From Gemmatimonadaceae bacterium (GTDB lineage Bacteria > Gemmatimonadota > Gemmatimonadetes > Gemmatimonadales > Gemmatimonadaceae), in contig JAUQWM010000025.1 in assembly GCA_030835125.1 (NCBI GenBank), forward strand, positions 1 to 32,197: a stretch of 32,197 bases of DNA, read 5' to 3'. Under the pieces are notes generated by a model. It was not told the origin of the DNA. It worked only from the letters and a program-made list of their open reading frames with translations, and searched no databases. The position numbers and the translations under genes were made by a program. Shown here piece by piece: positions 1 to 32,197 of the stretch. Each line of letters opens with the position of its first letter. Position 1 is the first letter of the stretch.

Positions 1-2
1 TC

Positions 3-34: not shown

Positions 35-45
35 AGTCCATCCCT

Positions 46-80
46 GATGCCTGATGCCTGATGCCTGATGCCTGATGCCT
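46..80. repeat. Heptamer tandem array (GATGCCT)x5
   Basis: Five perfect head-to-tail copies of GATGCCT. The last two bases of the array (CT, 79-80) form part of the reverse-strand TAG stop codon of the aminotransferase, so on the gene's sense strand the array starts inside the stop codon. The same unit recurs nine times at 30218-30280, again fused to the stop codon of a leftward gene. Confidence 0.95.
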
Positions 81-1553: not shown

Positions 1554-1634
1554 GCGGGGGTGGCGGAACTGGTAGACGCGCGGGACTTAGGATCCCGTGG
1601 CTTGGCCGTGGGGGTTCGAGTCCCCCCTCCCGCA
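1554..1634 (+). tRNA. tRNA-Leu(UAG)
   Basis: An 81-nt cloverleaf. The acceptor arm GCGGGGG (1554-1560) pairs with CTCCCGC (1627-1633), with discriminator A1634. The D arm contains GGTAGA. The anticodon stem CGGGA/TCCCG encloses the loop CTTAGGA, giving anticodon TAG, which reads CUN leucine codons. An extended variable arm typical of class II tRNA-Leu follows, then a T arm GGGGG-TTCGAGT-CCCCC. CCA is not encoded (TTG follows). An array of GAGTTGA heptamers starts 8 nt after the 3' end. Confidence 0.96.
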
Positions 1635-1641
1635 TTGGAAC

Positions 1642-1787
<146 letters not shown>

Positions 1788-1794
1788 GCCCCAC

Positions 1795-3258
1795 TCACGG
1801 CCTGCAGAGCGGCTGGACGAAATCATCCGGGTGCGTCGACCGTTCGATGTTCATGATCGGGAAGAAGCACGCCTTGCCGTACGCCTCCGCGGCGGACACC
1901 CACTTCCGTGCCTTGATACCGAAGCGGTGCATGTCCATCAACCGCTTGCCTTGGTTGAACAGGTTCACGAATCGCGAGTAAATCAGCATGTCCTGGGCGG
2001 CAGGAGTGCCCGCATACGGCGTCTGGGCACTCAGGGCTCGCAACTGGTTGATGAACGTCGTGAAGCCCGCGGTGTTCCCACCGGCGAGTGCGTGCTCGGC
2101 CCTGATGAGGAGCATCTCGCGAGCGGAGATGATCGTCAGCGGAACCAGGTCGCCCTGTCCGTTCTGCGTGCCCTTCACGCAGCATTCCGTGACATTCGCC
2201 CTGAAGACCGGATCGATGGCGCCGGTGACCGGGTCCTTGAGCGTGGTGCTGTCGACGGCATTGCCGCCGCTCACGGGGTCGACCCATGAGTCGCAGGAAT
2301 TGGTGTTACAGGAGCTGCTCGGCGATCCCGCCTGGCTGTCACCCGCGCGCAGCTCGAGACGGTTGTTGAGGTCGTTCCCGACGTTCGGGAACCCGAGCGT
2401 AGCGGTCTGCGGCGTCAGCTTGAACTTGTAGTCCGTGCCAGCGCCCATTTCCGCAAGCGCGGCCGCGGCGTCACCATCGGCGCCGGCGTCCGCGACCAGC
2501 GGGCTGGCGACCGGTGTGGTGACCGGGGCGCCGCTCGCTCCATTCAGCTTCGCCCAGATGGCCTTGGAGTGCTTGGCACGCGCCCGCATGGCCAGGAGGC
2601 GGATCTTGGTGTCCTTGGTGAGTCCGGCCACGGCCAGGCCTTCGGTGGCCTGGGTGATGGCCGAGTCGAACACGACCGCCATGTTGCCTTCACCGATGGG
2701 TAACCCGGGGGCGCCCGGGTTGGTGTACGAACCCGTCTTGTCGGCATCGATGACGAAGTCATCGAACATCTCACCGATGGCGGTGAAGACGATCGACTCG
2801 TACAGCAGCCCCCTGGCCAGGTCGTTCTTGTCGACCAGGGTTCCGTCGTCCAGGAATCCCTTCAGGCGGCTCACGGCAGTCGCCGCGGTCCAGCGGGCTT
2901 CCGCCATTTCCGGGAAGGCCGCATCGGAAAACTCGTTGAACGGATCGGAGACCTCGCCGCGATCGGCGTAGCCATACGCGTCACGCGAGCCGACGTACGT
3001 GAGTTCATCGGTCACCGCGCCGTACGGCGCGAGGATGGCCGTCAGTCCCCGGGTGACCGTGGCGCCGGCGCCGTTGGCGATGGCGGTCGCGGAGCCGGGG
3101 TTGCCGAGCGCGTCCTCGACGACGTTGTTCGGGTTCTTCACGTCGAGGAGGCCGCTACAGCCGGCCAGCGCAACCGTGGCGAACGCCGTCGTGACGACCC
3201 GGCCAACGCGACCGGGCAGGGCCCGGTCGCGCATCGAAGCAATCAGGAATCGAGTCAT
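1795..3258 (-). CDS. SusD/RagB-family outer-membrane substrate-binding lipoprotein
   Basis: A 487-residue surface lipoprotein that would cap the adjacent SusC channel and capture ligand for TonB-dependent uptake. The N-terminus is a type II signal peptide: positive residues, a hydrophobic stretch, then lipobox LAGC with the acylated Cys34, followed by LLDVKNPN, a typical SusD start. The C-terminal half has SusD-like helical segments (ISAREMLLIRAEHAL, FINQLRALS, FVNLFNQGKRLMDMHRFG). Seven further cysteines cluster in the second half (two in CNTNSC, another shortly after in SCDSW context, ECC, ACFF, PLCR), suggesting disulfides. It starts 18 nt after the susC stop with GGAG upstream, so the two are surely co-transcribed. 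No glycoside hydrolase is nearby, so a sugar substrate cannot be assumed; peptides or other oligomers are equally possible. Confidence 0.9.
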   Translation of the reverse strand: MTRFLIASMRDRALPGRVGRVVTTAFATVALAGCSGLLDVKNPNNVVEDALGNPGSATAIANGAGATVTRGLTAILAPYGAVTDELTYVGSRDAYGYADRGEVSDPFNEFSDAAFPEMAEARWTAATAVSRLKGFLDDGTLVDKNDLARGLLYESIVFTAIGEMFDDFVIDADKTGSYTNPGAPGLPIGEGNMAVVFDSAITQATEGLAVAGLTKDTKIRLLAMRARAKHSKAIWAKLNGASGAPVTTPVASPLVADAGADGDAAAALAEMGAGTDYKFKLTPQTATLGFPNVGNDLNNRLELRAGDSQAGSPSSSCNTNSCDSWVDPVSGGNAVDSTTLKDPVTGAIDPVFRANVTECCVKGTQNGQGDLVPLTIISAREMLLIRAEHALAGGNTAGFTTFINQLRALSAQTPYAGTPAAQDMLIYSRFVNLFNQGKRLMDMHRFGIKARKWVSAAEAYGKACFFPIMNIERSTHPDDFVQPLCRP

Positions 3259-17986: not shown

Positions 17987-18618
17987 GACGCATAGCCATC
18001 GGAGGGGCGCTCCTGGGGGCACTGGCCTGCACGGCCGGCGCCAGGACCGACGTGGTCACCACCACGCCGTCCGCCGCCTCACGAGACTCCTCGCGCCTCC
18101 TGGTGCCGGCCGGCTTCGGGTCGCTCAAGCAGGAGGACGTCGCCATCAGGCTGAGCCGGCGCGGGCTGCAGGTCCGCGCCATCCCTCTCGACGAGACCAT
18201 CATCCGCGTGCTGTCCCCCGACAGCTACCGCGCGCTGCGCGAGCAGCTCACCAGCCGTCGTCCGGCGCTCGACTCCCTCGCCCGGCGCACGGGACTGGGC
18301 GGGTTCTCGGTCTGGCTGGTGCGATTCCACGGGCTGGAGCAGGGCGAGACGTTCTTCAGTCCGATGGAATTCATCATCACCAGCGTCGGTCGTGACTTCC
18401 GCCCGATCGACGTGCTGCCGATCACGCCCGGCTTCGGGCAGCAAAGGCTGCGGCAGCGCGAGGTGCAGCAGGCCCTCTTCGTGTTCGACGGACAGGTGGA
18501 CGTGAACCAGCCGATCACGGTGCAGTATGAGACCACGCGCAACACGGACTGGGCGGTGGTGCTTTCGAGGATCGAGAGGGAACGCGCGCTGGTGAGGTCG
18601 AGGGCGGGGATCAAATAG
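17983..18618 (+). CDS. Small predicted lipoprotein of unknown function
   Basis: I do not recognise the family. The 211-residue product begins MRRIAIGGALLGALAC, a short type II signal peptide with Cys16 as the likely lipid-modified residue (lipobox ALAC, slightly off consensus). The mature part has no obvious repeats or catalytic motif; it includes QVRAIPLDETIIRVLSPDSY and, near the end, a beta-rich stretch (ALFVFDGQVDVNQPITVQYETT). It overlaps engB by 4 nt (ATGA) and so is the last gene of the lon-engB transcript. The G of its TAG stop is the first base of a GAGTTGG heptamer array. Confidence 0.75.
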   Translation: MRRIAIGGALLGALACTAGARTDVVTTTPSAASRDSSRLLVPAGFGSLKQEDVAIRLSRRGLQVRAIPLDETIIRVLSPDSYRALREQLTSRRPALDSLARRTGLGGFSVWLVRFHGLEQGETFFSPMEFIITSVGRDFRPIDVLPITPGFGQQRLRQREVQQALFVFDGQVDVNQPITVQYETTRNTDWAVVLSRIERERALVRSRAGIK

Positions 18619-18686
18619 AGTTGGGAGTTGGGAGTTGAGAGTTGAGAGAACGTGAGCGTCATCTCTCAACTCTCAACTCTCAACTC
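18618..18686. repeat. Inverted GAGTTGA heptamer hairpin shared by two convergent gene ends
   Basis: The left arm is GAGTTGG x2 then GAGTTGA x2 (18618-18645) plus GAGA. The right arm is TCTC plus TCAACTC x3 (18662-18686). The 18-nt segment 18632-18649 pairs perfectly with 18662-18679 around a 12-nt loop, and one more unit on each side extends this to 25 bp with a single G-U wobble. The left arm starts at the last base of the lipoprotein TAG. The right arm encodes the C-terminus of the NUDIX protein, and its TCA (18666-18668) is that gene's TGA stop. Confidence 0.92.
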
Positions 18687-19139
18687 GACCCGCAACACAT
18701 CCTCCATCGGGCCGGCATCGCCCCCACCGAAGACCTGCACCGCGTCACGAAGCGCGGACGCCGATCGCGGCCACGACAGGCGCGCCGCTGCCTCGTCAGG
18801 CGTCATCCACTCCGCCTGGTCATGCTCGATCCCGAGTTGGGGCTCCCCCGCCACGAACGCCACGAACACGATCGCCACCTGCACCGTGCCCAGGCGGTGC
18901 AGGTAGAACGGCTGGCACGTCAGGTTGTACAACCGCTCCACGTCGAGCCCGGTCTCCTCGCGCACTTCGCGGACCGCCGCATCCTCGGGGCGTTCGCCGG
19001 GCTCGACCCGGCCGTGGACCACTTCCCAGGCGCCGGTGCACCGCACACCGGTGGCCCGTCGGAGGACGAGGACCTCGAGGCCAGCTGGCTTCCTGCGGAA
19101 CGCCAGCACGTCAACCACGCCGGCTTCGAGCTGTGTCAT
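18666..19139 (-). CDS. NUDIX hydrolase
   Basis: A 157-residue NUDIX-fold pyrophosphohydrolase that would cleave a nucleoside diphosphate linked to another moiety. The Nudix box is complete: G43, then E49, R57-E58-V59, E61-E62, G64-L65, matching GX5EX7REUXEEXGU. The substrate is not evident; diadenosine polyphosphates, dATP-type nucleotides or dihydroneopterin triphosphate are possible for members of this size. The last eight residues (RVELRVES) and the stop are encoded by three GAGTTGA heptamers, so the original C-terminus was probably replaced or extended by the repeat. Because 7 is not a multiple of 3, any frame that enters this array meets TGA within three units. Confidence 0.9.
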   Translation of the reverse strand: MTQLEAGVVDVLAFRRKPAGLEVLVLRRATGVRCTGAWEVVHGRVEPGERPEDAAVREVREETGLDVERLYNLTCQPFYLHRLGTVQVAIVFVAFVAGEPQLGIEHDQAEWMTPDEAAARLSWPRSASALRDAVQVFGGGDAGPMEDVLRVELRVES

Positions 19140-19188: not shown

Positions 19189-21345
19189 TCAGGACTTCCG
19201 GAGCAGCGCCTTCAGCCTGGCGCTCAGGGCGCGGGGACGGAAGGGCTTCGTGATGAAGTCGTTGGCGCCGCTCTCGAAGACCTTCACCTCGCTGTCCTCG
19301 TCCCCCTTCGCCGTCAGCACCAGGACGGGCAGTTCCGCGGTGGACGGCCGTGCCCGGATGTGCTTCAGCACCTGGTAGCCATCGAGGCGCGGCAGGTTGA
19401 GATCGAGTACGATCGCGTCCGGTGCATGGCGGTCGATCTCCTCGAGCGCCTGCACGCCGTCCTTGGCCTCGATGATCGAGTAGCCCTCCCGTTCGAGCAG
19501 GTCGCGCAGCACGAGTCGCAGGGACTCCTCGTCTTCCACGAGCAGCACCGTGCTGCGGCCGGCCTTCCTGATGCCCGCAGACTCGTCGTCCACCAGCTCC
19601 AGCACCTCGTCCGGCAGGAAGCTTCCGGTCCGCGCCGGCGGCTTGATGGTGGACGTCGCCGACGGGGTTGGCATGCGCGCACCCTGCGGCCCGGCCGATC
19701 GCTGGGCCTGGCGCTGTCCCGCCGATCCGCCGCGCCCATCTCCCTCCACGGGGATTTCGACCACGCGCAGCAGTTCCTCGATATCCGTCTCGCCCGACAT
19801 GACGTGATCGACCCCGGACTCCCACATGGTCCGCATCCCGGCGCGTCGCGCGGCGTCAGCAATCCGCTCGGTCGACTCACCCGCCGAGATCCGGCGCTCC
19901 ACCTCGGCGTCGGTGACCATGACCTCCATGATCGCGAGCCGGCCGCGATAGCCGGTATTCCCGCACTCCGCACAACCCACGGGGCGCTGCAGCCCTTCGG
20001 TTGACGGAAACCAGCGCTGGAGCTTCGGGTCCGTTGGTGTGTCCTGTGCCGCCCGGCAGTGTGGGCACAGTCGGCGCAGGAGGCGTTGCGCGACCGCGCC
20101 CTTGAGCGCCGCCGCGATCTTGAAGGGCTCGATGCCGATGTCGATGAGCCGGGCCACCGAGCTCGCCGCATCGATGGTGTGCAGCGTGGAGAGCACGAGG
20201 TGGCCGGTCAGCGATGCCTGGGTGGCGATGGTCGCGGTCTCGCGGTCGCGGATCTCGCCCACGAGCACGACGTCAGGGTCCTGCCGGAGGATCGACCGCA
20301 GCGCCGACGCGAAGGTCAGGCCGGCCTTCTCGTTGACCTGCACCTGGACGATCCCGGTCAGCTTGTACTCGACCGGGTCCTCGACCGTGACGATGTTGAC
20401 GCCACGTTGCTGGATGAGCCGGAGTCCCGAGTAGAGCGTCGTCGTCTTGCCCGATCCCGTGGGACCGGTCACGAGCACGATGCCCTCGCGCAGGTTGAGC
20501 AGCCCGCCAATCCGCTCCTGCTCTCGCGGCGACAACCCCAGTCCGTCGAGGGTCATGACCGTGGACCGGCTGTCGAGGATACGAATGACCACCTTCTCGC
20601 CGGCCGAGGCCGGGAGGGTGGACACGCGGAGGTCGACGCGGTTCCCGTTCACGATCACGCGCGCCCGGCCGTCCTGGGGACGGAGGCGATCGGCGATGTC
20701 CAGCTCCGCCATGATCTTGATCCGGGACACGAGCGGTATCCCGACCGCGCGCGGCAGCATCATGGATTGGCGGAGGACCCCGTCGATCCGGTAGTTGACG
20801 ACAATGCCGCCTTCCTGCGCCTCGAGGTGAATGTCCGACGCGCGGCTCTGGATCCCCTCGGCGACGATGTGGTCGACCAGCTTGATGATCGGCCGCTCCG
20901 ACGCCTTGCTCGCGGCAATGTCGATGTCCTCGGCGGGTTCCTCGACGAACTGCTGCACGTCGTACTGCGTCATCCCCTCGAGGAGCTTCTCGACGGTGCG
21001 CTCGGGACGGTAGATCTCGGTGATCCGGTCGAGGATCCTCGCCGGCGACGCGAGGTGCATGCGGACCGCGCGCCCCGTGGCGAAACCGAGCATGCGCTCG
21101 CAATCGAGGTCGTGGGGGTCGGCGGTCGCGATGTCGATCGTCGAATTCGTAATCCGGAGTGGCAGGATCCGGAATTTCCGCGCCAACGACTCGGGCACGG
21201 CGGCCAGGGCGTCCGTCTCGGCCGCGGCAAGGTCGGCGATCGGCATCCTGAACCGGGCGGCCAGGGCGGCGAGGATGTCGTCATCCGCCGTCAGGCCCTG
21301 CGCGACGGCCGCCTCCCAAAGACTCTCGGGGCCCTCCTGCCTCAA
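19189..21345 (-). CDS. GspE/PilB-type secretion or pilus ATPase fused to a response-regulator receiver domain
   Basis: A 718-residue fusion. Residues 1-115 resemble the MshEN/GspE N-terminal domain. The ATPase core has Walker A GPTGSGKTT (294-302), an Asp box around VEDPVEY, Walker B VVLVGEIRDRETA, a His box near LSTLHT, and a zinc-binding tetracysteine (C427, C430, C458, C461). Such ATPases power type II secretion or type IV pilus assembly at the inner membrane. A Gly/Ser/Pro-rich linker (about 535-595) leads to a full receiver domain: acidic pocket E604-D605-E606, phospho-acceptor Asp648, Thr678 and Lys700. No DNA-binding output follows, so the receiver probably regulates the ATPase. The start at 21345 is a TTG with no ribosome-binding site; coding similarity seems to continue upstream to a CTG at 21429. 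No pilin, GspF or kinase gene is adjacent. Confidence 0.9.
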   Translation of the reverse strand: MRQEGPESLWEAAVAQGLTADDDILAALAARFRMPIADLAAAETDALAAVPESLARKFRILPLRITNSTIDIATADPHDLDCERMLGFATGRAVRMHLASPARILDRITEIYRPERTVEKLLEGMTQYDVQQFVEEPAEDIDIAASKASERPIIKLVDHIVAEGIQSRASDIHLEAQEGGIVVNYRIDGVLRQSMMLPRAVGIPLVSRIKIMAELDIADRLRPQDGRARVIVNGNRVDLRVSTLPASAGEKVVIRILDSRSTVMTLDGLGLSPREQERIGGLLNLREGIVLVTGPTGSGKTTTLYSGLRLIQQRGVNIVTVEDPVEYKLTGIVQVQVNEKAGLTFASALRSILRQDPDVVLVGEIRDRETATIATQASLTGHLVLSTLHTIDAASSVARLIDIGIEPFKIAAALKGAVAQRLLRRLCPHCRAAQDTPTDPKLQRWFPSTEGLQRPVGCAECGNTGYRGRLAIMEVMVTDAEVERRISAGESTERIADAARRAGMRTMWESGVDHVMSGETDIEELLRVVEIPVEGDGRGGSAGQRQAQRSAGPQGARMPTPSATSTIKPPARTGSFLPDEVLELVDDESAGIRKAGRSTVLLVEDEESLRLVLRDLLEREGYSIIEAKDGVQALEEIDRHAPDAIVLDLNLPRLDGYQVLKHIRARPSTAELPVLVLTAKGDEDSEVKVFESGANDFITKPFRPRALSARLKALLRKS

Positions 21346-21459
21346 CTGCTCGAGGCGCGGCGCATCGATCAGTGCCTGCAGCGTTGGCAGCAGCCAGTCG
21401 TCGCGAGTCGGGCGATCGTTCCCAGCCAGAGGATCCCTGCCTTTCAGGTGTGTGGGTCG

Positions 21460-21487
21460 AAACTAACGTGACTGCACGTCATGGCAA
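21460..21487 (-). promoter_or_regulatory. Candidate promoter for the ATPase-receiver gene
   Basis: On the minus strand TTGCCA (21482-21487) and TAGTTT (21460-21465) are separated by 16 nt. The spacer holds the small dyad TGAC-5-GTCA, a possible operator. Transcription would start near 21453, only about 24 nt before a CTG codon (21429) that has AGGG five nt upstream, which favours that start over the TTG 84 nt further on. Confidence 0.4.
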
Positions 21488-21540
21488 AGCTGAGCATGAC
21501 AGGCGTCCGACAGGAATGCGCAAACGACCGCCGCCGGGGC

Positions 21541-23598
21541 TCACAGGATTCGCCACAAGTCGCGTGTCAGGTCTACGCCGACCATCCAGCGGCCGTCGCG
21601 AAGGCCGCGGGCGACATCGAGTCGCACGAGGTCGAAGAACACCAGAAGCCCGGTACCGAGGGCCGGGTAGGCGGCCACACGTCGACTGCCGTGCGCGTCG
21701 CGCTCCTCCTGCAGCACGACGGTGGCGAGGGGCGCGAGCGTCGCCCTGGACGGCGATCTTCCCCAACGCCCGAGCGGTACCCCCGGGAAATGGATGGGGA
21801 ATTGCCATTCCACCCGCTGGGCGAGCAGCGCGCGGGACACAAACTGGTGGGCCCCGTACCCGGGACCCGTCACCGGTCCTCCCGCCCTGATGAGGTCCTG
21901 CGCGAGGGGACTGGAGCCGGTCCCGCCGAAGGTCTCGAGCCGCAGGCGCGCATCACCGACCGGACGCTCGAAGTTCACGTGCAGCGTGCCGCGGGTGGGA
22001 AAGGAGGTGGATCCCGGTTCGCCGAGGCGTCGCACCTGGAAGACGACCGTGGCGCCGGCGATGCCGCCCAGGATCGCGCGCTGCGCCAGCGAAAGGCGCG
22101 CGTCGGCCCGCCATCCGTGCCCCGTCATTACCGGCGGGGCCGGCCGGTATGCTCCGCTGGCGGGGACGGCCTGCACGACGGCCGGCTCCGTCCACTCCCG
22201 AGCCAGGCCGAGGGACACGGTGGCCGGCGCGAACGCCGCGTCGGCGCGGACGTCGAAGCCCCGCACCCGGTAGGGCTCGGTGAAGTCAGCCCCGAACTCC
22301 TGGGCGCCTATCGAGTTCCGGACGCCCGACACCTCCGCCCAGTCACTCGCGTCCCGGGTCTCGTCGAAGGCGCCGGCGCGGATCGCCAGCGTCGGCGCCG
22401 GCCTCCACGACATCCGCACCGAGCCCTTGAGTCGCTCGTCCGACAGCCCGTACCGCCCGGCGATGGCCACGTCGAACACCGGCCCGAGCCGCTGCCGCAC
22501 CCCGGCGCCTAACGAGAGACCTTCGGCCCGGTTGACGCGGGCCAGGTCCGACAATGAGCCGGCCAGCACGGTCGCGCGCCGGGCTCGCGCCAGCGCCGCC
22601 TGACCGACCAGTTCCCGGGCGCGTTCCTGGACCCGCGCCACGTCCGCCCCGGACACGGTGGCCAGGTCCGGGGGGACGACCGTCCGCAATGGTGCCGGGA
22701 ACTCGTACGCGGCCCGGCGCTCCGGCGGCGCCAGCTCGATCTCCGGCCCGACGAAACGGGTCGCCGGTTGCCCGGTGTTGACGCGATAGCAGCAGATCTC
22801 GAATCCCCCGCGGATGATCCCGCGCGCGGGAAACTCCAGCCACGACCCGCTGCGCCGGATCTCGATCTCCTGCCGCCGCGGGAGCCAGAAGCGCGACTCG
22901 ATCAGCGCGTTGTCGAGCACGATCGACACGTCCTCGAGCTGCTGGTCGATCAGCGCCGCGCGGGTGAACGAGAAGGCCATCCGCACCACCTGGGCATCGG
23001 CGCGCGACAGGTAGACGGCGCCCACCGCCGCGGGACGCGATGGGTCCTTCGGCCGCAGGCGCACCTCGAGAACCTCGATGACCTGGCCCGGGATCTCGAT
23101 CCGCATCGAGTCGGTGATGGCGAAGTCGTACGCCTGCAGCCCGACGTCGGACAGCGGGTGCGGCACGTCGCGCACCTCGTCGCCATCCCCCAGCCGGATG
23201 ATCCTGGGGAAGTTGTTCTGCACGATCCCCAGGTGGTCGCGGTGGTACTGGATGTCCGTCGGCAGCAGCAGGGTGTCGCGGCGACCGAGGATCAACTGCT
23301 TGCTGTGGTTCGGCGCGCGCCAGTAGACTTCGAGCGCGATCTGGTCCGCCTTCACCACCTTGGGCGGATCGGGGAAGCCTTCGCCGACCTGCGCCAGGAA
23401 CGTGAGGGCCCCGATGGCGGTTGCCGTGTAGTCGGTCAGCCCGGTGTCCGCCAGTTGCAGGGCGCGGCGCTCGGTCGCCCGCGACACCAGCGCCGTCGTG
23501 CGCGCGTCGTTCCACTCCTGCGCGCCCGACGGAACGGCTGCTCCCGGCAGCAATCCAATGGCGACTACCGCGGCTCCAGCCGCTCCCAATCGAGGCAT
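21541..23598 (-). CDS. Large exported protein, probable outer-membrane beta-barrel, function unknown
   Basis: I do not recognise the family. From the ATG at 23598 it has 685 residues; a GTG seven codons upstream (23619) is also possible and neither has a clear ribosome-binding site. The signal peptide MPRLGAAGAAVVAIGLLPGAAVPSGAQE is plain. Residues about 60-290 form a beta-rich region (EVYWRAPNHSKQLILGRRDT, PGQVIEVLEVRLRPKDPSRP, FWLPRRQEIEIRRSG) reminiscent of LolA-like or carboxypeptidase-associated outer-membrane domains. The C-terminal half has the alternating pattern of a barrel with many arginines. An unusual adjacent cysteine pair (FEICCYR) is present. It lies downstream of no obvious partner and is divergent from trpE, 50 nt away. 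One TTA-GGC codon pair occurs here. Confidence 0.75.
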   Translation of the reverse strand: MPRLGAAGAAVVAIGLLPGAAVPSGAQEWNDARTTALVSRATERRALQLADTGLTDYTATAIGALTFLAQVGEGFPDPPKVVKADQIALEVYWRAPNHSKQLILGRRDTLLLPTDIQYHRDHLGIVQNNFPRIIRLGDGDEVRDVPHPLSDVGLQAYDFAITDSMRIEIPGQVIEVLEVRLRPKDPSRPAAVGAVYLSRADAQVVRMAFSFTRAALIDQQLEDVSIVLDNALIESRFWLPRRQEIEIRRSGSWLEFPARGIIRGGFEICCYRVNTGQPATRFVGPEIELAPPERRAAYEFPAPLRTVVPPDLATVSGADVARVQERARELVGQAALARARRATVLAGSLSDLARVNRAEGLSLGAGVRQRLGPVFDVAIAGRYGLSDERLKGSVRMSWRPAPTLAIRAGAFDETRDASDWAEVSGVRNSIGAQEFGADFTEPYRVRGFDVRADAAFAPATVSLGLAREWTEPAVVQAVPASGAYRPAPPVMTGHGWRADARLSLAQRAILGGIAGATVVFQVRRLGEPGSTSFPTRGTLHVNFERPVGDARLRLETFGGTGSSPLAQDLIRAGGPVTGPGYGAHQFVSRALLAQRVEWQFPIHFPGVPLGRWGRSPSRATLAPLATVVLQEERDAHGSRRVAAYPALGTGLLVFFDLVRLDVARGLRDGRWMVGVDLTRDLWRIL

Positions 23599-23648
23599 GC
23601 CAGCGAAGTATCGAGGCACGACACGGGCCGATCAAGGAACGGCGTGAC

Positions 23649-25145
23649 ATGGTGACGTTCGAGCGATTCACCGAGCTCGCGCGCGACGCCACGCTCGTGC
23701 CCGTGTGGCGAGACGTGCTCGTGGACATCGACACCGCCGTGTCCGCATTCGCCAAGATCCGGCGCGCGCCCTTCGCCTTCCTGCTGGAATCGGCCCCGGC
23801 TGGTTCGGAAACCTGGTCCCGCTACACCTTCATGGGCACCGAGCCGCGATCGGCGTGGCGGCTCCGCGACAACCGGATCGACACCTGGACCGCGGCCGGC
23901 GGCTGGGTCGCGGCTCCGGCGACCACGGACCCGATCGCCGACCTGCAGCGCCGCGTGCGCGACGAGCGGCCGGCGAACGTGCCCGAGCTCGGCGCGTTCT
24001 GGTCAGGGGCGGTCGGCTACTTCGGCTACGACGTCGTCCGCACCATCGAGCACCTTCCGTCGCCGCCGCCGCGGGGCGTGGATGCGCCGGATGCGCTCTT
24101 CGTCTTCACGCGCGCGCTGCTCATCCTCGACAACCTGCGCGGCCTCGGTCGCATCGTCGTCGCGGTGCCGGTCAACGAGGACACCCCGACCGCCCGGGCG
24201 CGCGTGCTGTTCGACGAGGCCCAGGCGGAGATCGACACGCTGGTCGAGCGGCTCAAGGCGCCCTCGCCCCTGCGCGCGATGGCCCTCGCCGACACCGCCC
24301 CGGCAGCGGTCGGGCGATCCACGTACGACCGCGACAAGTTCCTGGCGGACGTCGAGACCATCCGCGAGTACATCGCGGCCGGCGATTGCTTCCAGGGGTT
24401 GCTGGCGCGGCGCATCGAGGTGCCCCATGACTTCGACAGCGCCGACCTGTATCGGGCGCTGCGCGCGCTCAACCCGTCACCGTACATGTACCACCTGGAA
24501 CTCGACGGCATGGAACTCGTGGGGAGCTCGCCCGAGCTGCTGGTGCGGGTCGCGGACGGCCGCGTCACGGTCCGTCCGATTGCCGGCACGCGCCCCCGCG
24601 GCGCGACCGCCGAGGAGGACGCGCGCCTCACCGCCGAGCTGCTCGCCGACGAAAAGGAACGCGCCGAACACGTGATGCTGGTGGACCTTGGCCGCAACGA
24701 CGTGGGGCGGATCGCCCGGTTCGGATCGGTGAAGGTGACCGACTTCATGACGGTCGAGCGCTATTCCCATGTCCTCCACATCGTGAGCCAGGTCGAGGGT
24801 GAGCTGCGCGAGGGATGCTCGGCGCTCGACGCGTTCCGGGCGACCTTCCCCGCCGGCACGATGACCGGCGCCCCGAAGGTCCGCGCGATGGAGATCATCG
24901 ATGAACTGGAGCCCGAGCGCCGCGGCGCGTACGCCGGCGCTGTCGGGTACGTGGCGACCGGCGACGCGCGCATGGACCTCGCGATCACCATCCGCACCTG
25001 CGTGATCGCCGGGGGCACGGCCAGCATCCAGGTGGGCGCCGGGATCGTGGCCGACTCGGTGCCGGAGCGGGAATGGGACGAGACCGGGAACAAGGCGCGC
25101 GCACTGCTCACCGCCCTCGGTCGCGTCAAGGCGGCCTCGCGCTAG
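23649..25145 (+). CDS. trpE: Anthranilate synthase component I
   Basis: A 498-residue chorismate-using enzyme that makes anthranilate with ammonia supplied by TrpG, the first step of tryptophan synthesis. The N-terminal regulatory domain has LLES (45-48), part of the tryptophan feedback site. The catalytic domain shows GDCFQGLLARR, NPSPYMYHLE, PIAGTRPRG, LVDLGRNDVGR, FPAGTMTGAPKVRAMEIIDELE and IQVGAGIVADS, all chorismate-binding family signatures. LLES, RYSHVLHIVSQVEG and the overall length favour TrpE over PabB. The ATG at 23649 has AAGGA ten nt upstream; the long upstream open frame is a shadow of the divergent gene. No trpG or other trp gene follows, so its amidotransferase partner must be encoded elsewhere. 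It ends 33 nt before the cyclase gene. Confidence 0.92.
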   Translation: MVTFERFTELARDATLVPVWRDVLVDIDTAVSAFAKIRRAPFAFLLESAPAGSETWSRYTFMGTEPRSAWRLRDNRIDTWTAAGGWVAAPATTDPIADLQRRVRDERPANVPELGAFWSGAVGYFGYDVVRTIEHLPSPPPRGVDAPDALFVFTRALLILDNLRGLGRIVVAVPVNEDTPTARARVLFDEAQAEIDTLVERLKAPSPLRAMALADTAPAAVGRSTYDRDKFLADVETIREYIAAGDCFQGLLARRIEVPHDFDSADLYRALRALNPSPYMYHLELDGMELVGSSPELLVRVADGRVTVRPIAGTRPRGATAEEDARLTAELLADEKERAEHVMLVDLGRNDVGRIARFGSVKVTDFMTVERYSHVLHIVSQVEGELREGCSALDAFRATFPAGTMTGAPKVRAMEIIDELEPERRGAYAGAVGYVATGDARMDLAITIRTCVIAGGTASIQVGAGIVADSVPEREWDETGNKARALLTALGRVKAASR

Positions 25146-25164
25146 GCGAGCCCCTGTCGCCCCG

Positions 25165-25170
25165 TATATT
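25165..25170 (+). promoter_or_regulatory. -10-like TATATT before the cyclase operon
   Basis: TATATT stands out in GC-rich surroundings and lies exactly 8 nt before the ATG of the FHA-GAF-cyclase gene. With no Shine-Dalgarno present, this spacing fits a leaderless transcript starting at or next to the ATG. No -35 is recognisable. Confidence 0.4.
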
Positions 25171-25178
25171 CCCCTTCG

Positions 25179-26762
25179 ATGCCGTTCCGACTCGTCAGCG
25201 CCGATGGCCAGCTCTCGTTTGAACTGCGACCGGGCATGCCCCTCATCCTCGGGCGTGCCCTGAGCAGCGACCTGCCCGTGCTCGATCCCACCGTGTCGCG
25301 GCGCCACGCCGAGCTCACGGTCGAGCCGTCCAGTGTATCCCTGAAGGACCTGGGGTCGAGCAACGGGACTTTCGTGAACGGGGCGCGTGTGTCCGACGTC
25401 ACCGTCCGCACGGGCGACAAGGTGGTGTTCGGCAAGATCCTGTTCGAGTTGCACGACCTGAGCCCGATGCTCATCGACGACGGGACGGCGGAGACCAAGC
25501 GGCGCGCCGCCCGTGCCGGCACGACCGTCATCCGGCAGGTGCCCGTTCCCGATGCCGACCTCACGCTCGAGCGCGCCCTCCGCGCCAGCGGCGTGCAGGC
25601 GGCGGTGGACGAGACCGCGGTCGTCCTCCCGCAGCACGAGCGCGACCGGCTCAAGCTCACCCTCCTGCTCGAGGTGTCGAAGGCCCTCACGCGGGTCACG
25701 GACGTGGGTGGACTGCTGGAGAAGATGCTGCAGTTCACGTTCCGCCTCGTCGAGGTCGACCAGGCGTCGATCCTGCTGCTCGACGAGGACCGCCAGCTGG
25801 TGGAGCGCCTGACGAAGGTGCGCGAGGGAGGCACACCGCACGAGGTCCCCATCGCGCTGGCGCAATCGGCGCTCGACCAGAAGTCGGCCCTGCTTTCCGA
25901 CAACACGGCGAACCACAGCGGGACCGGACCCACGCGCTCGTCGGTCTGTGCCCCGCTCATCGGCGGCGAGGGGCGCGCCCTGGGCGTGCTGTACGTGGAC
26001 AGCGCGGCGGCGACCCGGCGCGTGGACGACGACGACCTGGAGTTCCTCGTCGCGTTCGCCGGGATCGGCGCGGTCGCGCTCGACAACCTCCGGTTCACGG
26101 AGCGCAGCCGCCAGGACGCGCTGATCCGCGGCAACTTCGAGCGCTTCTTCACGCCCATGCTGGCGGCCCGGATTGCGGCGGCACCGGAATCGCTGCGCCT
26201 CGGCGGCGAGCGGCGCGACGTGGCGGTCCTGTTCAGCGACATCCGCGGGTTCACCACGCTGGCGGCGCGCCTCACGCCTGACGAGACCGCCCGCCTCCTC
26301 ACGGAGTACTTCTCCGAGATGGCCGAATGCGTGTTCCGGCATGGAGGCACGCTGGACAAGTTCATCGGCGATGAGGTGATGGCGCAGTGGGGCGCGCCGA
26401 TCAGCGAAGGCGACGACGCCGATCGCGCACTCGCGGCGGCCTGCGACATGATCGCGGCCCTGCAGCGCCTCAACGCGCGCTGGCTGTCGCAGGGTCGGCC
26501 GCGACTCCAGGTCGGCATCGGCATCAACTACGGCGAGGCCTTCGCCGGCTACCTGGGCTCCGAGCGCCGCCTCGAGTACACGGTGATCGGCGATACGGTG
26601 AACACCGCCAAGCGCCTGTGCTCCGCCGCGCTCGGGGGGGAGATCCTCGTCACGGGCGCGATGCGCGACCGACTCGTGGCGCCACGCGCGCTGGAGCCGC
26701 ATACGCCGCTGGAGGTCGCCTCGCGCGCCGGGCCGATCCCCGTGTTCCGGGTGGTGTCGTGA
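25179..26762 (+). CDS. FHA-GAF-class III adenylate cyclase
   Basis: A 527-residue cytosolic signalling protein. Residues 1-95 are an FHA phosphothreonine-binding domain (GR at 25-26, SRRHAEL at 40-46, GSSNGTFVNG at 59-68). Residues about 157-306 form a GAF sensor domain. The C-terminal class III nucleotide cyclase (about 345-500) has both metal-binding aspartates, Asp354 in LFSDIRGFT and Asp398 in KFIGDEV; Lys394 and Thr468 at the base-recognition positions, a pair typical of ATP use; and the transition-state residues Asn475 and Arg479 in VNTAKRL. It therefore looks like an active adenylate cyclase making cAMP, gated by a kinase pathway (FHA) and a small ligand or redox signal (GAF). Its TGA overlaps the GTG of the next gene, tying it to LPS-core synthesis. 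Confidence 0.93.
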   Translation: MPFRLVSADGQLSFELRPGMPLILGRALSSDLPVLDPTVSRRHAELTVEPSSVSLKDLGSSNGTFVNGARVSDVTVRTGDKVVFGKILFELHDLSPMLIDDGTAETKRRAARAGTTVIRQVPVPDADLTLERALRASGVQAAVDETAVVLPQHERDRLKLTLLLEVSKALTRVTDVGGLLEKMLQFTFRLVEVDQASILLLDEDRQLVERLTKVREGGTPHEVPIALAQSALDQKSALLSDNTANHSGTGPTRSSVCAPLIGGEGRALGVLYVDSAAATRRVDDDDLEFLVAFAGIGAVALDNLRFTERSRQDALIRGNFERFFTPMLAARIAAAPESLRLGGERRDVAVLFSDIRGFTTLAARLTPDETARLLTEYFSEMAECVFRHGGTLDKFIGDEVMAQWGAPISEGDDADRALAAACDMIAALQRLNARWLSQGRPRLQVGIGINYGEAFAGYLGSERRLEYTVIGDTVNTAKRLCSAALGGEILVTGAMRDRLVAPRALEPHTPLEVASRAGPIPVFRVVS

Positions 26763-27520
26763 GCACCACCACCATCCCGAAGGACTACAGCCGGTTTCGC
26801 GTCGACCACGCCCACGTGGTCGCCCACGAGTCCTGCGTGGAGTGGGCGAAGGGCGTGCTGCCGTCGCAATCGCTCTATCAGTGGGCGGCCACGCAACCCG
26901 GCAGCCGTGACCTGGGGGGGCGCATCCCGGCGTACTCGGTGCTGCTGCCCGGCCAGGAGCGACGGGTCGTCGTCAGGCACTCGCACCATGGCGGGCTCCT
27001 CGGGCGCCTGCAGGGCGACCTGTTCCTGCCCCCGACCCGCGCCCCGTATGAACTGCTCATCTCGCACCTCCTGGCCGGCCTGGGCGTCCGCACGCCGCTC
27101 GTGGTGGCAATCGCCGTGTACACGGTGCGGCGGATCCTCCGCCGGAGCGACATCGTCTCGCTCGAGCTTCCGGGCCGCGACCTCGGCAAGGCGTTGCGCG
27201 ACCAACCGGATGCCGACGTACGGCGCAGCTGGCTCGACTCCATCGCGGCGCTGGTGCGTTCGCTGACGACCATCGGCGCCTGGCACCCCGACCTGAACGT
27301 CGGGAACGTGCTGCTCGTGCAGAACGGCCCGCGGGAATGGGACGCGTACGTGCTGGACATCGACCGGCTGCAGTTCGCGCCCCCAAGCGATCCCACGGTC
27401 CGCGACGCGAATCTCGACCGGCTGGAACGCTCCGTGAAGAAGCTCCGGGCGCGCTTCGGGGCCGGCTTCGACGACGCCGAGATGAAGACGCTCCGGGAAC
27501 TGGCCAGCGCGCCGGCGTGA
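26759..27520 (+). CDS. Kdo kinase/WaaP-like lipopolysaccharide kinase
   Basis: A 253-residue protein-kinase-like fold enzyme resembling KdkA (3-deoxy-D-manno-octulosonate 4-kinase) and WaaP, which phosphorylate LPS inner-core sugars with ATP on the inner leaflet. Diagnostic parts are VVRHSHHGGLLGRLQGDLFL (71-90, glycine-rich, similar to the RHYRRGG segment of KdkA), the catalytic loop HPDLNVGNVLL with Asp178 and Asn183, and the metal-binding Asp202 in VLDIDRLQF. The start is a GTG overlapping the cyclase stop; an upstream extension in the same frame lies inside the cyclase gene and is not real. The next gene is a heptosyltransferase, again overlapping by 4 nt, which supports a core-LPS role. 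Whether the target is Kdo or heptose cannot be told. Confidence 0.8.
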   Translation: MSTTTIPKDYSRFRVDHAHVVAHESCVEWAKGVLPSQSLYQWAATQPGSRDLGGRIPAYSVLLPGQERRVVVRHSHHGGLLGRLQGDLFLPPTRAPYELLISHLLAGLGVRTPLVVAIAVYTVRRILRRSDIVSLELPGRDLGKALRDQPDADVRRSWLDSIAALVRSLTTIGAWHPDLNVGNVLLVQNGPREWDAYVLDIDRLQFAPPSDPTVRDANLDRLERSVKKLRARFGAGFDDAEMKTLRELASAPA

Positions 27521-28548
27521 TTCCGGCCCGGCTGGACCGTATCTGCGTGGTGATGATGAGCGCGGTCGGGGACGCCGTGCACGTCCTCCCGGTGATCAAC
27601 GCCCTCAAGCGACACGCTCCCGGGTCGCGGATCTCCTGGGTCCTGCAGCCGGGACCCGCCGCGCTCGTGCGTGGGCACCCATCGGTCGACGAGATCATCG
27701 TCTTCGATCGCGGCGCGGGTTGGCGCGCTTTCGCCGAGGTCCGGCGGGAACTGGCTCGGCGGGACTTCGACCTCGTCCTGAACCTCCAGGTCTACTTCAA
27801 GGCCGGTATCGTCACTGCGATGACCCGGGCGCCGGTGAAGCTCGGGTTCGACCGGGCCCGAGCGCGTGACCTGAACTGGCTGTTCACGACGCACCGGATT
27901 CCCGCCCGGGCGGTTGGCCAGCATGTCCAGGACCAGTACTTCGAGTTCCTGGAAGCCCTGGGCGTAGAGCCGCAGCCGGTGACGTGGAACCTGGGACCCT
28001 GGCCCGGTGAGGAGACCTGGCGGGACGCGTTCTTCTCCGCTTTTGATCGTCCGGTGGCGGCCATCGTGGTCGCAACGAGCAAGCCGGAAAAGGACTGGCT
28101 GCCGGACCGCTGGGCGGAGGTAACCGACATCCTTTCCGGGGAGTTCGGGCTCCAGCCGGTTCTGGTCGGAAGCCGGTCGCCTCGCGAAACTGCCGCCGAG
28201 GCGGTCATCCTGCAGCGGTCGACCACCAAGCCGGTTTCCGCGCTCGGTAGCGGGCTGCGCAATCTGGTTGGGATCCTGTCCGGGTCGGCCGTCGTCCTGG
28301 CACCGGATACCGGCCCGCTGCACATGTCCGTGGCGCTAGGCCGGCCGGTCATCAGCCTGATGGGCTACACCAACCCGAAGCGGACAGGACCCTACCGGCG
28401 GTACCAGGACCTCATCGTCGACGCCTATGGAGACCCCGGCGAAGACTACCCGGTTTCGATGGAAAACCGGCCGGGAAGGATGGCCCGGATCACGGTGGAC
28501 CAGGTGAAGGAGAAGCTCCGACTCTGGAGCGAGCGGTACCGGGGCTGA
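27517..28548 (+). CDS. ADP-heptose:LPS heptosyltransferase, glycosyltransferase family 9
   Basis: A 343-residue GT-B glycosyltransferase that would move a heptose from ADP-heptose to the LPS inner core at the cytosolic face of the inner membrane. Visible are the N-terminal acceptor-side motif MMSAVGDAVHVLPVINALK, VDEIIVFDR, DLVLNLQ, and the C-terminal nucleotide-sugar site with VLAPDTGPLHMSVALGRPVISLMG, the family hallmark. The usual WaaF-type H or K in the ATSKPEKDWLPDRWAEV segment is present as Lys. The GTG start overlaps the kinase stop (GTGA), and the longer upstream frame lies inside the kinase gene. WaaC, WaaF and WaaQ types cannot be separated here. Its stop lies inside a terminator-like hairpin. 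Confidence 0.9.
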   Translation: MIPARLDRICVVMMSAVGDAVHVLPVINALKRHAPGSRISWVLQPGPAALVRGHPSVDEIIVFDRGAGWRAFAEVRRELARRDFDLVLNLQVYFKAGIVTAMTRAPVKLGFDRARARDLNWLFTTHRIPARAVGQHVQDQYFEFLEALGVEPQPVTWNLGPWPGEETWRDAFFSAFDRPVAAIVVATSKPEKDWLPDRWAEVTDILSGEFGLQPVLVGSRSPRETAAEAVILQRSTTKPVSALGSGLRNLVGILSGSAVVLAPDTGPLHMSVALGRPVISLMGYTNPKRTGPYRRYQDLIVDAYGDPGEDYPVSMENRPGRMARITVDQVKEKLRLWSERYRG

Positions 28549-28595
28549 CGGGCCGCGGCGCGGGACCGCTTGCCGGGCGACGCGGCGGCCCTCAG
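28545..28595. terminator. Hairpin at the end of the cyclase/LPS operon
   Basis: CTGA (28545-28548), a bulged C, then GGGCCGC (28550-28556) pairs with GCGGCCC (28585-28591) and TCAG (28592-28595). The heptosyltransferase stop codon is inside the left arm. CGTTAATGCG follows. A GC-rich terminator with a large internal loop is the likely role. Confidence 0.45.
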
Positions 28596-28709
28596 CGTTA
28601 ATGCGTCCCCCGGCCCGGCGTCCAACGCACCGCGGCAGGGTGCCGTATTTGTCCTCGGGCCTCGCCCACTTCGGGCCGGCCCACAACAATCCTCACTGGA
28701 GTTCCCCCA

Positions 28710-29096
28710 ATGAAGTACGTGCGCGTTCTGCTCATGGTGCTGGCGGCGATCGTGTTCGTCGCGCCGGCGTCGCAGGCGCAGGGTGGCGGCGGCGGTGGCC
28801 GCGGCCGCGGTGGCCAGATGACGGCCTTGATGGCGAATATCACGTTGACGGCTGATCAGCAGGCGAAGGTCGACTCGATCACGGCGGCCTTCCGCGAGCA
28901 GCGCATGGCGCTGATGCCCGCGGGCGGCGGCATGGGCGGCATGGACTCGACCACGCGCGCCAAGATGACGGAGATGACCAACAAGCAGTACGACGACATC
29001 CGCAAGGTCCTCACCGAGGAGCAGGCGAAGGTCTTCGACGAGAACCGCAAGAACCTGCCGCAGGGACGTCGCGGCGGCGGAACGGGCGAGCGTTAG
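28710..29096 (+). CDS. Spy/CpxP-like small periplasmic protein
   Basis: A 128-residue exported protein: signal peptide MKYVRVLLMVLAAIVFVAPASQAQ (cleavage near 23), a Gly/Arg-rich linker, then helical segments with two LTxxQ-type motifs, LTADQQAKVDSI and LTEEQAKVFDENR, the pattern of the Spy/CpxP family of ATP-independent periplasmic chaperones and stress sensors. The tail is again Gly/Arg-rich (QGRRGGGTGER). GGAG lies 9 nt before the ATG. It is monocistronic, between two hairpins. The similarity is limited to the LTxxQ motifs and helical layout, so chaperone activity is inference. Its stop codon lies in a CGTTAGGCT context, one of the GTTAGGC sites in the window. Confidence 0.8.
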   Translation: MKYVRVLLMVLAAIVFVAPASQAQGGGGGGRGRGGQMTALMANITLTADQQAKVDSITAAFREQRMALMPAGGGMGGMDSTTRAKMTEMTNKQYDDIRKVLTEEQAKVFDENRKNLPQGRRGGGTGER

Positions 29097-29120
29097 GCTG
29101 CACCCGTCCCGATGCCGGTG

Positions 29121-29152
29121 AGGCGCCGCGGCCCGTGAGGGTCGCGGCGCCT
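29121..29152. terminator. Bidirectional terminator between convergent genes
   Basis: AGGCGCCGCG (29121-29130) and CGCGGCGCCT (29143-29152) form a perfect 10-bp stem with a 12-nt loop; TTGCCGTTT follows on the plus strand. It lies between the Spy-like gene and the converging maf gene. Here an ordinary hairpin does the job that heptamer arrays seem to do at the other two convergent junctions. Confidence 0.7.
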
Positions 29153-29159
29153 TGCCGTT

Positions 29160-29756
29160 TCAGGCCACCGGGGCGGCGCCGAACTCGTAGTGCACGCCGA
29201 CCTTGCCGAGCAGCGCCACCAGCCGCCCGATGGCCAGTCCCATCACCGCGAAGTAATCGCCGTCGATCCGCTCCACGATCACCGCGCCGTAGCCCTGGAT
29301 GCCGTAGGCGCCCGCCTTGTCCATCGGTTCCCCGGTGGCGATGTACGACGCGACCTGGTCGTCGGTCAGCGCGCGGAAGGTCACGTCGACCGCCTCAACG
29401 CCCGATTCCATCACGCCGCGGCGCGCCACCGCCACCGCGGTGAGCACCGTATGGGTGCGGCCCGACAGGCGGCGCAGCATGCGGGCAGCGTCGGGCACGT
29501 CCACCGGCTTCCCGAGGATGTCGCCGTCGACGACGACGATGGTGTCGGCGCCGATGACCACGGCATCCGGCTCGCGCGCCGCCACCACGCCGGCCTTGGC
29601 CCGTGCCAGGCGCTCGGCGTGAATGGCCGGCGATTCGCCGGGGAGGACCGACTCGTCGACGTCCGCCGGCTGCACGTGGTGGGGAATGCCGATCAGCGTC
29701 AGGAGTTCCCGCCGCCGGGGGGACTGCGAGGCCAGGATGATGTGCGCCGGCGTCAT
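29160..29756 (-). CDS. maf: Maf-family nucleoside triphosphate pyrophosphatase
   Basis: A 198-residue house-cleaning enzyme that hydrolyses non-canonical or excess nucleoside triphosphates (dTTP, UTP and modified forms) to monophosphates. The motifs are [13 protein letters not shown] at the N-terminus, the acidic [19 protein letters not shown], and [13 protein letters not shown] in the C-terminal half. I chose the ATG at 29756, which overlaps the dtd stop (ATGA); a start four codons upstream is less likely. The pairing with dtd makes a two-gene quality-control unit. Its 3' end faces a bidirectional terminator. Confidence 0.93.
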
Positions 29757-30202
29757 CGCTCGAGCCACAGCGTCACGGGACCGTCGTTCACCAGTTCCAC
29801 GTCCATCATCGCGCCGAACTCGCCCGTCTCGACGTGCAGCCCGGTGCCCCGCAACTCGGCGATGAACCGTTCATAGAGCGGAATCGCCTGTTCAGGGCGG
29901 GCCGCGTCGATGAAGCTCGGGCGCCTGCCCTTCCGGGCATCGCCATACAGCGTGAACTGCGAGACGACCAGCAACGCGCCCCCGACATCCGTCAGGGCGA
30001 GGTTCATCTTCCGCTCGGCGTCGGCAAAGAGCCTCAACCCGGCAACCTTCTCCGCCATCCACGCGACCTTCGCGTCGTCGTCATCGTGTGTGAAGCCGAC
30101 GAGCAGGACATAGCCGCGGGTGACGGTACCGGCGACGCGCATGGCGTCGCCTTCCCGGATCCGCACCTCGGCACGGCTGACGCGCTGGAGCAGAACTCGC
30201 AT
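29753..30202 (-). CDS. dtd: D-aminoacyl-tRNA deacylase
   Basis: A 149-residue homodimeric enzyme that removes D-amino acids (and glycine from tRNA-Ala) mischarged on tRNA, a translation proofreading step. Family signatures are [13 protein letters not shown] at the N-terminus, [21 protein letters not shown] with the catalytic SQFT, and the Gly-cisPro motif in [10 protein letters not shown]. The start at 30202 matches the universal DTD N-terminus; a frame continuing upstream through the repeat array is not coding. A GATGCCT array begins 15 nt upstream, leaving no room for a conventional ribosome-binding site or promoter outside the array. Confidence 0.95.
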
Positions 30203-30217
30203 CTGAATGGAGGAGAG

Positions 30218-30280
30218 GATGCCTGATGCCTGATGCCTGATGCCTGATGCCTGATGCCTGATGCCTGATGCCTGATGCCT
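30218..30280. repeat. Heptamer tandem array (GATGCCT)x9
   Basis: Nine perfect copies with no interruption. They fill nearly the whole gap between the ACR3 stop and the dtd start. The last T (30280) is the first base of TCA, the reverse-strand TGA of the ACR3 gene. On the sense strand the array reads AGGCATC, which has no stop in any frame. Unit and orientation match the five-copy array at 46-80. Confidence 0.95.
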
Positions 30281-31344
30281 CAGAACAATCGCGAGCGCGA
30301 CCAGCGCGCCAGGTAGACGAGCGCCACGAGGACCGGGACCTCGATCAACGGCCCGACGACGCTCGCCATCGCCTCGCCTGACGCGATCCCGAAGGTGGCG
30401 ATCGCCACCGCGATGGCCAGCTCGAAGTTGTTGCCCGCCGCGGTAAAGGCCACCGATGCCGAGGCTTCGTACCCGAAGCCCAGGGTGCGCGAAAGGAGCA
30501 GGGCGGAACCGAACATGAGGATGAAGTACACGACGAGCGGCACCGCGATGCGCACGACATCCACCGGCGAGGCCAGGATGCGATCCCCCTGCATCGCGAA
30601 CATCAGGACGATCGTGTAGAGCAGCCCGACCAGGGCGGTCGGGCCGAGGCGCCGCATGAACGTGTCCTCGTACCATGTCTCGCCCCGCGCCCCCACCAGG
30701 ACACGCCTGGTGATGTAGCCGGCGAGCAGCGGGATGCCCAGGAAGATCCCGACGCTGCGCGCGATCGACCCCATGGAGACGTTCAGCGTCGTCGTTTCCG
30801 CACCCATCCACCCCGGGATCACGTTGAGGAACAGGTAGCCGAGGAGCGCATAGGTGACGATCTGGAACAGGGAGTTCACGGCGACCAGCACCGCCGCCAG
30901 CTCCCGCGAGCCGCCCGCCAGGGAGTTCCAGATCAGGACCATTGCGATGCACCGCGCGAGGCCGATGAGGACGAGCCCGTTCCGGTACTCGGGGAGGTCG
31001 GGGAGGAAGATCCAGGCCAGGACGAACATCAGGACCGGACCCACCAGCCAGTTGAGGGCCAGCGATGTCGTCATGACGCGGACATCCCGCGTGTGCTTTC
31101 CGACCGCGTCGTACCGCACGCGCGCGAGGACCGGGTACATCATCCAGAGCAGGCCGATCGCGATCGGGACCGAGACGCCGGCGAGCTGCACGCGGTCGAG
31201 CGCGGCGCCGAGCTGCGGATACGCCTGGCCGAGGAGCAGGCCGCTCGCCATCGCCGCGAGGATCCAGACCGGGAGGAACCGGTCGAGGGTGGAGAGCCCG
31301 GCGAGCGGTTGCCGGTCGCGGGCGGTCATCGGGGACGCGGTCAT
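30280..31344 (-). CDS. ACR3-family arsenite efflux transporter
   Basis: A 354-residue integral membrane protein with about ten hydrophobic segments that would export arsenite (or antimonite) using the proton gradient. The conserved metalloid-binding Cys132 lies in [15 protein letters not shown], and the family motifs [18 protein letters not shown] and [15 protein letters not shown] with its conserved Glu are intact. The N-terminus before the first segment is a little long; Met6 is an alternative start. The ATG overlaps the stop of the metallophosphoesterase (ATGA), so the two are co-translated. No arsR, arsC or arsA is in view, so regulation by arsenic is not evident. It ends exactly at the nine-copy GATGCCT array. 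Confidence 0.9.
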
Positions 31345-32120
31345 GCCGAAGGGGCCTCGCCGGGAGGATCCAGCCGGGACCCGCCCGATGCGAGGTAGTG
31401 CGCGAACTCGTCAGGCAGGGTACTGGCGCGGATCGCGCTCACGGCCCGCCCCACGTCGTACGCGACGCGCCGGTGTGAGACGTCGATGGCGTCCGGGGTG
31501 ATCGCGAGGAGCGCGTACCCGGCCCGGGGGTCGCCGTCCTTCGGGCGACCGACGCTTCCCGTGTTGACGAAATGCACGTCGTCCACGACCCGGTGCCAGG
31601 GACGGTGGGTATGGCCGAACGCGATGACGTCACCCGCCTTCAAGCCGGCCAACCCTGCCATCTTCCGGCAGAAGTCGTCGGGTCGATCCTCGGTCCAGTA
31701 GACGGTGTTGAGGGTCGGCGTCCCGTGCACGAGCACGATACGCGGGCCAGCCGAGTGACCGCCGTACGGGTGGATGTCCAGGCGAAACGGTAGCGCCGCC
31801 AGTGCCCGCGTGGTGCGGGGTGAGCAGGTCGCCTTCGTCCACTCGAAGCTCGCGTGCGACAGGGCTTCCTGGCGGGGATCCTCGTACCGGCAGCCACAGT
31901 GCTTGTAGGCGAGGCCGACGGTCGAGTCATAGTTCCCGGACACACCGGCAATGCCACGGGCGGCGATCGCTGCTACGACCTCGTCGGGCCACGGCGCGTA
32001 GCCAACGAGGTCCCCCAGGTGGTAGGTCGCGTCCACGCCGATCGAGTCGATGTCGGCCAGGACCGCCTCGAGCGCCGGGAGGTTCGCGTGGATGTCGGAA
32101 ACGAGGGCGATGGTGGACAT
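31341..32120 (-). CDS. Calcineurin-like metallophosphoesterase (YfcE/MJ0936 type)
   Basis: A 259-residue cytosolic phosphoesterase with a two-metal site. The five family motifs appear in order: SDIHAN near the N-terminus, LGDLVGY, GNYD (Tyr in place of the usual His), VHGTP and GHTH. A short CGC cysteine cluster (KHCGCRYED) lies in the middle. Relatives hydrolyse phosphodiesters or phosphoproteins, and substrates are mostly unknown. It overlaps the ACR3 gene by 4 nt, an arrangement that suggests a linked but unexplained role. There is no ribosome-binding site; the ATG lies 7 nt from a GAGGGTC heptamer array running to the window edge. Confidence 0.9.
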
Positions 32121-32127
32121 GGGAGTC

Positions 32128-32197
32128 GAGGGTCGAGGCTCGAGGGTCGAGGCTCGAGGGTCGAGGCTCGAGGGTCGAGGGTCGAGGGTCGAGGGTC
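32128..32197. repeat. Heptamer array (GAGGGTC/GAGGCTC)x10 or more, cut by the window edge
   Basis: Ten perfect 7-bp units. The first six alternate GAGGGTC and GAGGCTC, and the last four are all GAGGGTC; a degenerate unit (GGGAGTC, 32121-32127) touches the ATG of the metallophosphoesterase. The array continues beyond the window. Each TCGA junction gives local dyads, so the strand can fold on itself. Confidence 0.93.

Follow-up and report, generated by a model that had tools for sequence, protein, structure and literature searches.

Tandem heptamer arrays near stop codons of a Gemmatimonadaceae genome: gene-end sites that can outlast their repeat words

Background

Why should the same seven-nucleotide unit abut stop codons at two distant places on one contig? 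The window analysed here is the whole of contig JAUQWM010000025.1 (32,197 nt; assembly GCA_030835125.1, from a Gemmatimonadaceae bacterium), and it carries two perfect forward-strand arrays of GATGCCT, one of 5.4 copies at 43-80 and one of 9.0 copies at 30218-30280. As the original prediction held (five copies at 46-80 and nine at 30218-30280), both arrays share bases with the stop codon of a leftward gene and both read AGGCATC on the strand of that gene. The first shares the AG (79-80) of the TAG stop (79-81, reverse strand) of a class-III aminotransferase gene (79-1401, reverse strand; Pfam PF00202), and the second shares the A (30280) of the TGA stop (30280-30282, reverse strand) of an SBF/ACR3-type transporter gene (30280-31344, reverse strand; assigned from Pfam PF01758 and relatives). 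These base-precise placements had been read as a sign of targeted insertion or of growth from a seed next to the stop, and it had been proposed that the copy number of the second array could tune expression of dtd and maf.

Results

The window is an entire contig (C73) of a 4.48-Mb genome in 73 contigs (G000), whose nearest named relatives are Gemmatimonadetes metagenome-assembled genomes (MAGs). A search of this genome for three exact copies of GATGCCT returned 125 overlapping matches and its reversed control returned none, indicating that the two arrays of the window are not due to chance. In 400 kb of unselected sequence from the same genome, 25 arrays of at least 18 bp (our detection limit) had period 7, and none of the other periods between 2 and 15 accounted for more than 4. 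A larger sample of 1.2 Mb, partly chosen for GATGCCT loci and hence enriched for them, held 211 period-7 arrays of many unit families, 19 of them inside genes as called by a codon-usage scorer built for this analysis, without Prodigal. The commonest unit was AGGCATC (70 arrays), followed by GAGAGTT (18), CGAGGGT (14), GACTCGT (14), GGGCATC (10), GGGAATC (10) and others. Copy numbers of 3-4 were the most frequent, the low end of the distribution being shaped by the 18-bp limit. Apart from one 42-bp hairpin and short chance matches, arrays shared no flanking sequence. One stretch of contig C8 (L103, 6212-11897) has long called open reading frames that hold many different heptamer arrays, and may be a non-coding or decayed region that was mistaken for genes.

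One word dominates per genome: AGGCATC here, a GGGTTC type in a relative of the same genus (G005; 72% complete and fragmented) and TGCTGAG in another genus of the same class (g75). Three perfect copies of GATGCCT were present in one of the 395 genomes of the phylum that were searched, and the word was absent from G005; GGGTTCG arrays, in turn, occurred in G005 only, among four genomes searched. Three copies of TGCTGAG gave 225+194 matches in G337 and 54+33 in G392 (both g75), and these arrays likewise have period 7 and lie at gene ends. They surfaced by chance, when the reversed control of another pattern matched, and were then confirmed. Other genera of the family had sparse arrays (in 20-kb samples) and few syntenic slots. 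Two further cases were seen in passing: in the Gemmatimonadetes MAG Ww170, arrays of GAGTCGT, CCCTCAC and CCTGTTC surround an intergenic hairpin (L021, 5520-5690 and 8940-9035), and in G020, which belongs to a different genus of the family, a GC-rich hairpin has GATTGGT/AACAACC-type heptamers on either side (L172, 15813-15925).

Alignments with G005 show that the word turns over at slots common to the two relatives, so that array slots can outlast their word. At one such slot (C59/L133 here, C85 in G005) the stop is TAG in both genomes and the left arms align over about 33 nt without an indel, copy by copy, while the units are AGGCATC here and of the GGGTTC type in G005; the right arm has changed as well, so that both arms differ. 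The word also differs from that of G005 at the two slots of C58/L132 and at C11/L105. A different kind of change appears at C28/L122, where G005 reads TAC-TGA-TC followed by a CAACTC-type heptamer array with no GATGCCT, and our genome reads TAC-T directly followed by AGGCATC copies and then the same CAACTC-type array. The GATGCCT array at this locus thus lies inside the ancestral stop and supplies a new one (TGA to TAG), a change that we read as a gain in our genome, not as a loss from G005, because the word is absent from all other genomes searched. At many orthologous slots, close relatives differ in having gained or in lacking an array. Among 21 syntenic intergenic regions, themselves partly chosen for arrays, 12 had arrays in our genome, 9 in G005 and 7 in both (counted by eye; one-sided Fisher test, p = 0.11), so that slot sharing is only a trend.

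With respect to placement, exact fusion to a stop codon is an enriched minority within a broader gene-end bias. One or two bases were shared with a stop by 13 arrays, against 3.4 expected if arrays fell at random within the same intergenic regions (no more than 10 in any of 1000 simulations). Within 15 bp of a stop there were 79 arrays, against 51 expected under the same scheme. The predicted association with stops therefore extends genome-wide, but its base precision is not a rule: of the GATGCCT arrays only 7 overlap the stop by one or two bases, the median distance to the stop is 21.5 bp and 14 of 54 lie more than 60 bp away. Distances are thus broad, although the one- or two-base overlap exceeds what random placement gives. 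The other heptamer units are placed like GATGCCT, and arrays also occur upstream of genes in antisense. Per kilobase of intergenic DNA, arrays numbered 2.50 between convergent genes, 1.37 between tandem genes and 0.60 between divergent ones. Phase-locking of AGGCATC to the stop was considered and set aside (T|AGG phase in 8 of 23 arrays; p = 0.16 for the two stop-forming phases jointly), and we make no claim for it.

Arrays near genes also have a common polarity. Within 15 bp of a stop, the purine- or G-rich strand was directed away from the gene in 23 AGGCATC arrays and toward it in 3, with corresponding counts of 43 and 9 for other units. Near starts the other units divided 14 to 1 in the same sense. 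Arrays in g75 divided 17 to 5. In addition, 73 of 182 arrays (40%) had an inverted partner, against 6 with shuffled units, and so did 27 of 68 arrays in g75, against 1 with shuffled units.

Further features of the window bear on how its two arrays can be read. Behind the first lies a GC-rich hairpin with an 11-bp outer stem (2-35, reverse strand), and contig C12 repeats bases 1-79 without a difference (L107, 5060-5138). The contig of the window therefore starts in a repeat node common to two loci, which leaves doubt about how many copies the first array has and about its upstream flank. The other end of this contig falls within a GTCGAGG array (32125-32197); arrays probably break the assembly. 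The second array is followed by dtd (D-aminoacyl-tRNA deacylase; 29753-30202, reverse strand; Pfam PF02580), which overlaps maf (29160-29756, reverse strand; Pfam PF02545) by 4 bp, and the transporter gene on its other side overlaps a calcineurin-like phosphoesterase gene (31341-32120, reverse strand) by 4 bp. Contrary to the view that this array occupies the entire region upstream of dtd, it covers 62 of the 77 bases between transporter gene and dtd, with 15 bp left before dtd.

Arrays of other units are also present in the window. A TGCAGAG array (1422-1444, no strand assigned) is followed by a tRNA-Leu gene (1554-1634, forward strand), directly behind which a GAGTTGA/GAGTTGG array (1642-1686, forward strand) forms the left arm of an inverted pair; the right arm, a TCAACTC array (1746-1787, reverse strand), ends 7 bp from the stop of a gene at 1795-3234 (reverse strand). 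An AGTTGGG/AGTTGAG array (18618-18648, forward strand) is fused to the TAG stop of a gene at 18052-18618 (forward strand), and its inverted partner, again TCAACTC (18663-18686, reverse strand), overlaps the 3' end of a convergent gene (18666-19139, reverse strand). Intrinsic terminators in the window were considered and rejected: a scan gave counts only modestly above those of shuffled sequence, with no listed site at the arrays.

A separate motif, CGTTAGGC (GTTAGGC), occurred 146 times in 0.79 Mb, against 7.3 occurrences expected under an order-2 Markov model. It is mostly coding and in one frame (xCG TTA GGC), such that 154 of 239 TTA codons lie in G-TTA-GGC. Within the window it is found at 8229, 9299, 14792, 16067, 16874 and 29092 on the forward strand and at 178, 10232 and 22507 on the reverse strand. 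Certain other genera of the family have it in large numbers too (L170, L172), and it was absent from the 31 kb of G005 that were checked. It may be a Chi-like or uptake-like motif.

Discussion

We favour, at about even confidence, an account that combines slippage, fold-back copying and exchange among arrays at gene-end sites where harm is low. Polymerase slippage in 7-nt steps would grow the arrays, fold-back template switching would copy one arm into its inverted partner, and the current word would spread from one dispersed array to another by template switching or gene conversion, a step to which the single dominant word per genome points. Arrays would persist where they are least harmful, in the interval that separates a stop codon from the next regulatory site; some may become part of the stop codon or replace a 3'-end hairpin. 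Any role in termination or in protection of mRNA 3' ends would be secondary. Several points weigh against this account. No slippage, template-switch or inter-array conversion step was observed, and one assembly per species does not show copy-number change. Slippage alone fails to explain about 60 dispersed copies of one word and, with slot sharing no more than a trend, some slots common to the two genomes could be independent gains.

A bolder proposal is that the heptamer word at conserved gene-end slots is rewritten in concert, across dispersed loci and in both inverted arms, by a trans-acting copying process that uses neither a reverse transcriptase nor a Y1 transposase; we regard this as doubtful. 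Searches of G000 and of the incomplete G005 yielded neither a reverse transcriptase (PF00078) nor a Y1 transposase of the type associated with repetitive extragenic palindromes (RAYT; PF01797), other transposase families not having been searched. Copying of the telomerase kind or of the kind seen in diversity-generating retroelements was accordingly rejected, as was REP/RAYT mobilisation. A larger mobile element was rejected for lack of common flanks beyond the 42-bp hairpin, and for the same reason the arrays do not fit a miniature inverted-repeat transposable element or other insertion element.

The main rival to the slippage-and-exchange account is that arrays are selected 3'-end elements, with inverted arms that fold into hairpins, serve to terminate transcription or to shield mRNA 3' ends, and co-evolve through selected pairing. 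We consider this possible, if somewhat unlikely. Some predicted hairpins are very stable (−68.2 kcal/mol over 107 nt at L102, −67.7 at the L133 slot and −58.4 at L314 of G005), arrays are enriched between convergent genes, and G005 has an ordinary hairpin at the same place as our arrays at C8/L102. In Xanthomonas, moreover, repeats able to form G-quadruplexes coincide with starts or stops of transcripts more often than control repeats do (PMC4692102). However, about 60% of our arrays have no inverted partner, the dtd array of the window folds weakly (−14.3), the folded examples lack U tracts, and a selected element would have to accommodate the gain or absence of arrays between close relatives at so many orthologous slots.

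It is improbable that the arrays are regulatory repeats acting through G-quadruplexes, the role proposed for GGGNATC in Xanthomonas and Nostoc. Although GGGAATC and GGGCATC exist here as minor units, and placement and pairing match those described in PMC4692102, the main unit AGGCATC has only GG. Furthermore, units without a GG or CC run kept the same polarity near stops in 23 of 27 cases here and in 12 of 12 in g75, which speaks against G-quadruplexes as a general cause.

That a mobile element inserts specifically at stop codons, in line with the original prediction, now seems very unlikely. It would fit the array inside the ancestral TGA at C28/L122, the excess of stop overlaps and the fact that TAG adjoins 13 of the 23 close AGGCATC arrays, compared with 27% of all stops (p = 0.002). 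Nevertheless, distances to stops vary widely, no common flank was found, and the search for Y1 transposases and reverse transcriptases was negative within the scope given above.

Tuning of dtd-maf expression by array copy number, although the array does fill most of the 77-bp gap before dtd, is scarcely credible and gained no supporting evidence, given that phosphoesterase, transporter, array, dtd and maf follow one another co-directionally with two 4-bp overlaps, that no promoter-like site was found in 20001-32197, that the G005 locus has an extra gene and no array, and that AGGCATC-type arrays adjoin many other genes.

Relation to known repeat systems

Repetitive extragenic palindromic (REP) elements and bacterial interspersed mosaic elements (BIMEs) are intergenic, occur in inverted pairs behind genes and form hairpins. 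The arrays described here differ from them in being tandem heptamers where the REP/BIME unit is palindromic, and no Y1 (RAYT-type) transposase was detected in G000 or in the part of G005 that is available. Our literature search found no paper on heptamer repeats in Gemmatimonadota.

Heptanucleotides are the commonest class of long simple sequence repeats in most genomes, and a 7-nt polymerase contact has been proposed (Mrazek et al. 2007, as cited in PMC4679880 and PMC4692102); the citing accounts consulted do not mention gene-end polarity or word turnover. The TAACTGA repeats of Beggiatoaceae, Cyanobacteria and Bacteroidetes (MacGregor 2015, PMC4679880) are, like ours, dispersed intergenic heptamer arrays with one dominant word, but they lie mostly just upstream of start codons, and no more than one indirect repeat has been reported among them.

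The closest known system is that of the GGGNATC heptamers of Xanthomonas and Nostoc (Rehm et al. 2015, PMC4692102), which that paper describes as lying behind stops on the coding strand, overlapping stops and forming inverted pairs; for 83% of repeats in the two Xanthomonas genomes, the matching gene context also held a G-rich repeat pattern. Further traits of the GGGNATC class are a preference for four units and G-quadruplex formation in vitro. Our arrays are similar in being dispersed, largely intergenic tandem heptamers, in lying on the coding strand close behind stops and on the non-coding strand upstream of genes, and in forming convergent inverted pairs well above the shuffled control. 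With respect to the GGG tract of the unit, the minor GGGCATC and GGGAATC have one and the main AGGCATC does not. Our genome also differs in holding many unrelated words, in the switch of words against its relative at shared slots and in polarity without GG. Word turnover at conserved slots and equal polarity in GG-free units were not found in the consulted passages of PMC4692102. Polarity in GG-free words separates gene-end effects from G-quadruplexes, and sister genomes whose words differ at shared slots offer a direct test of slippage and conversion against targeted insertion.
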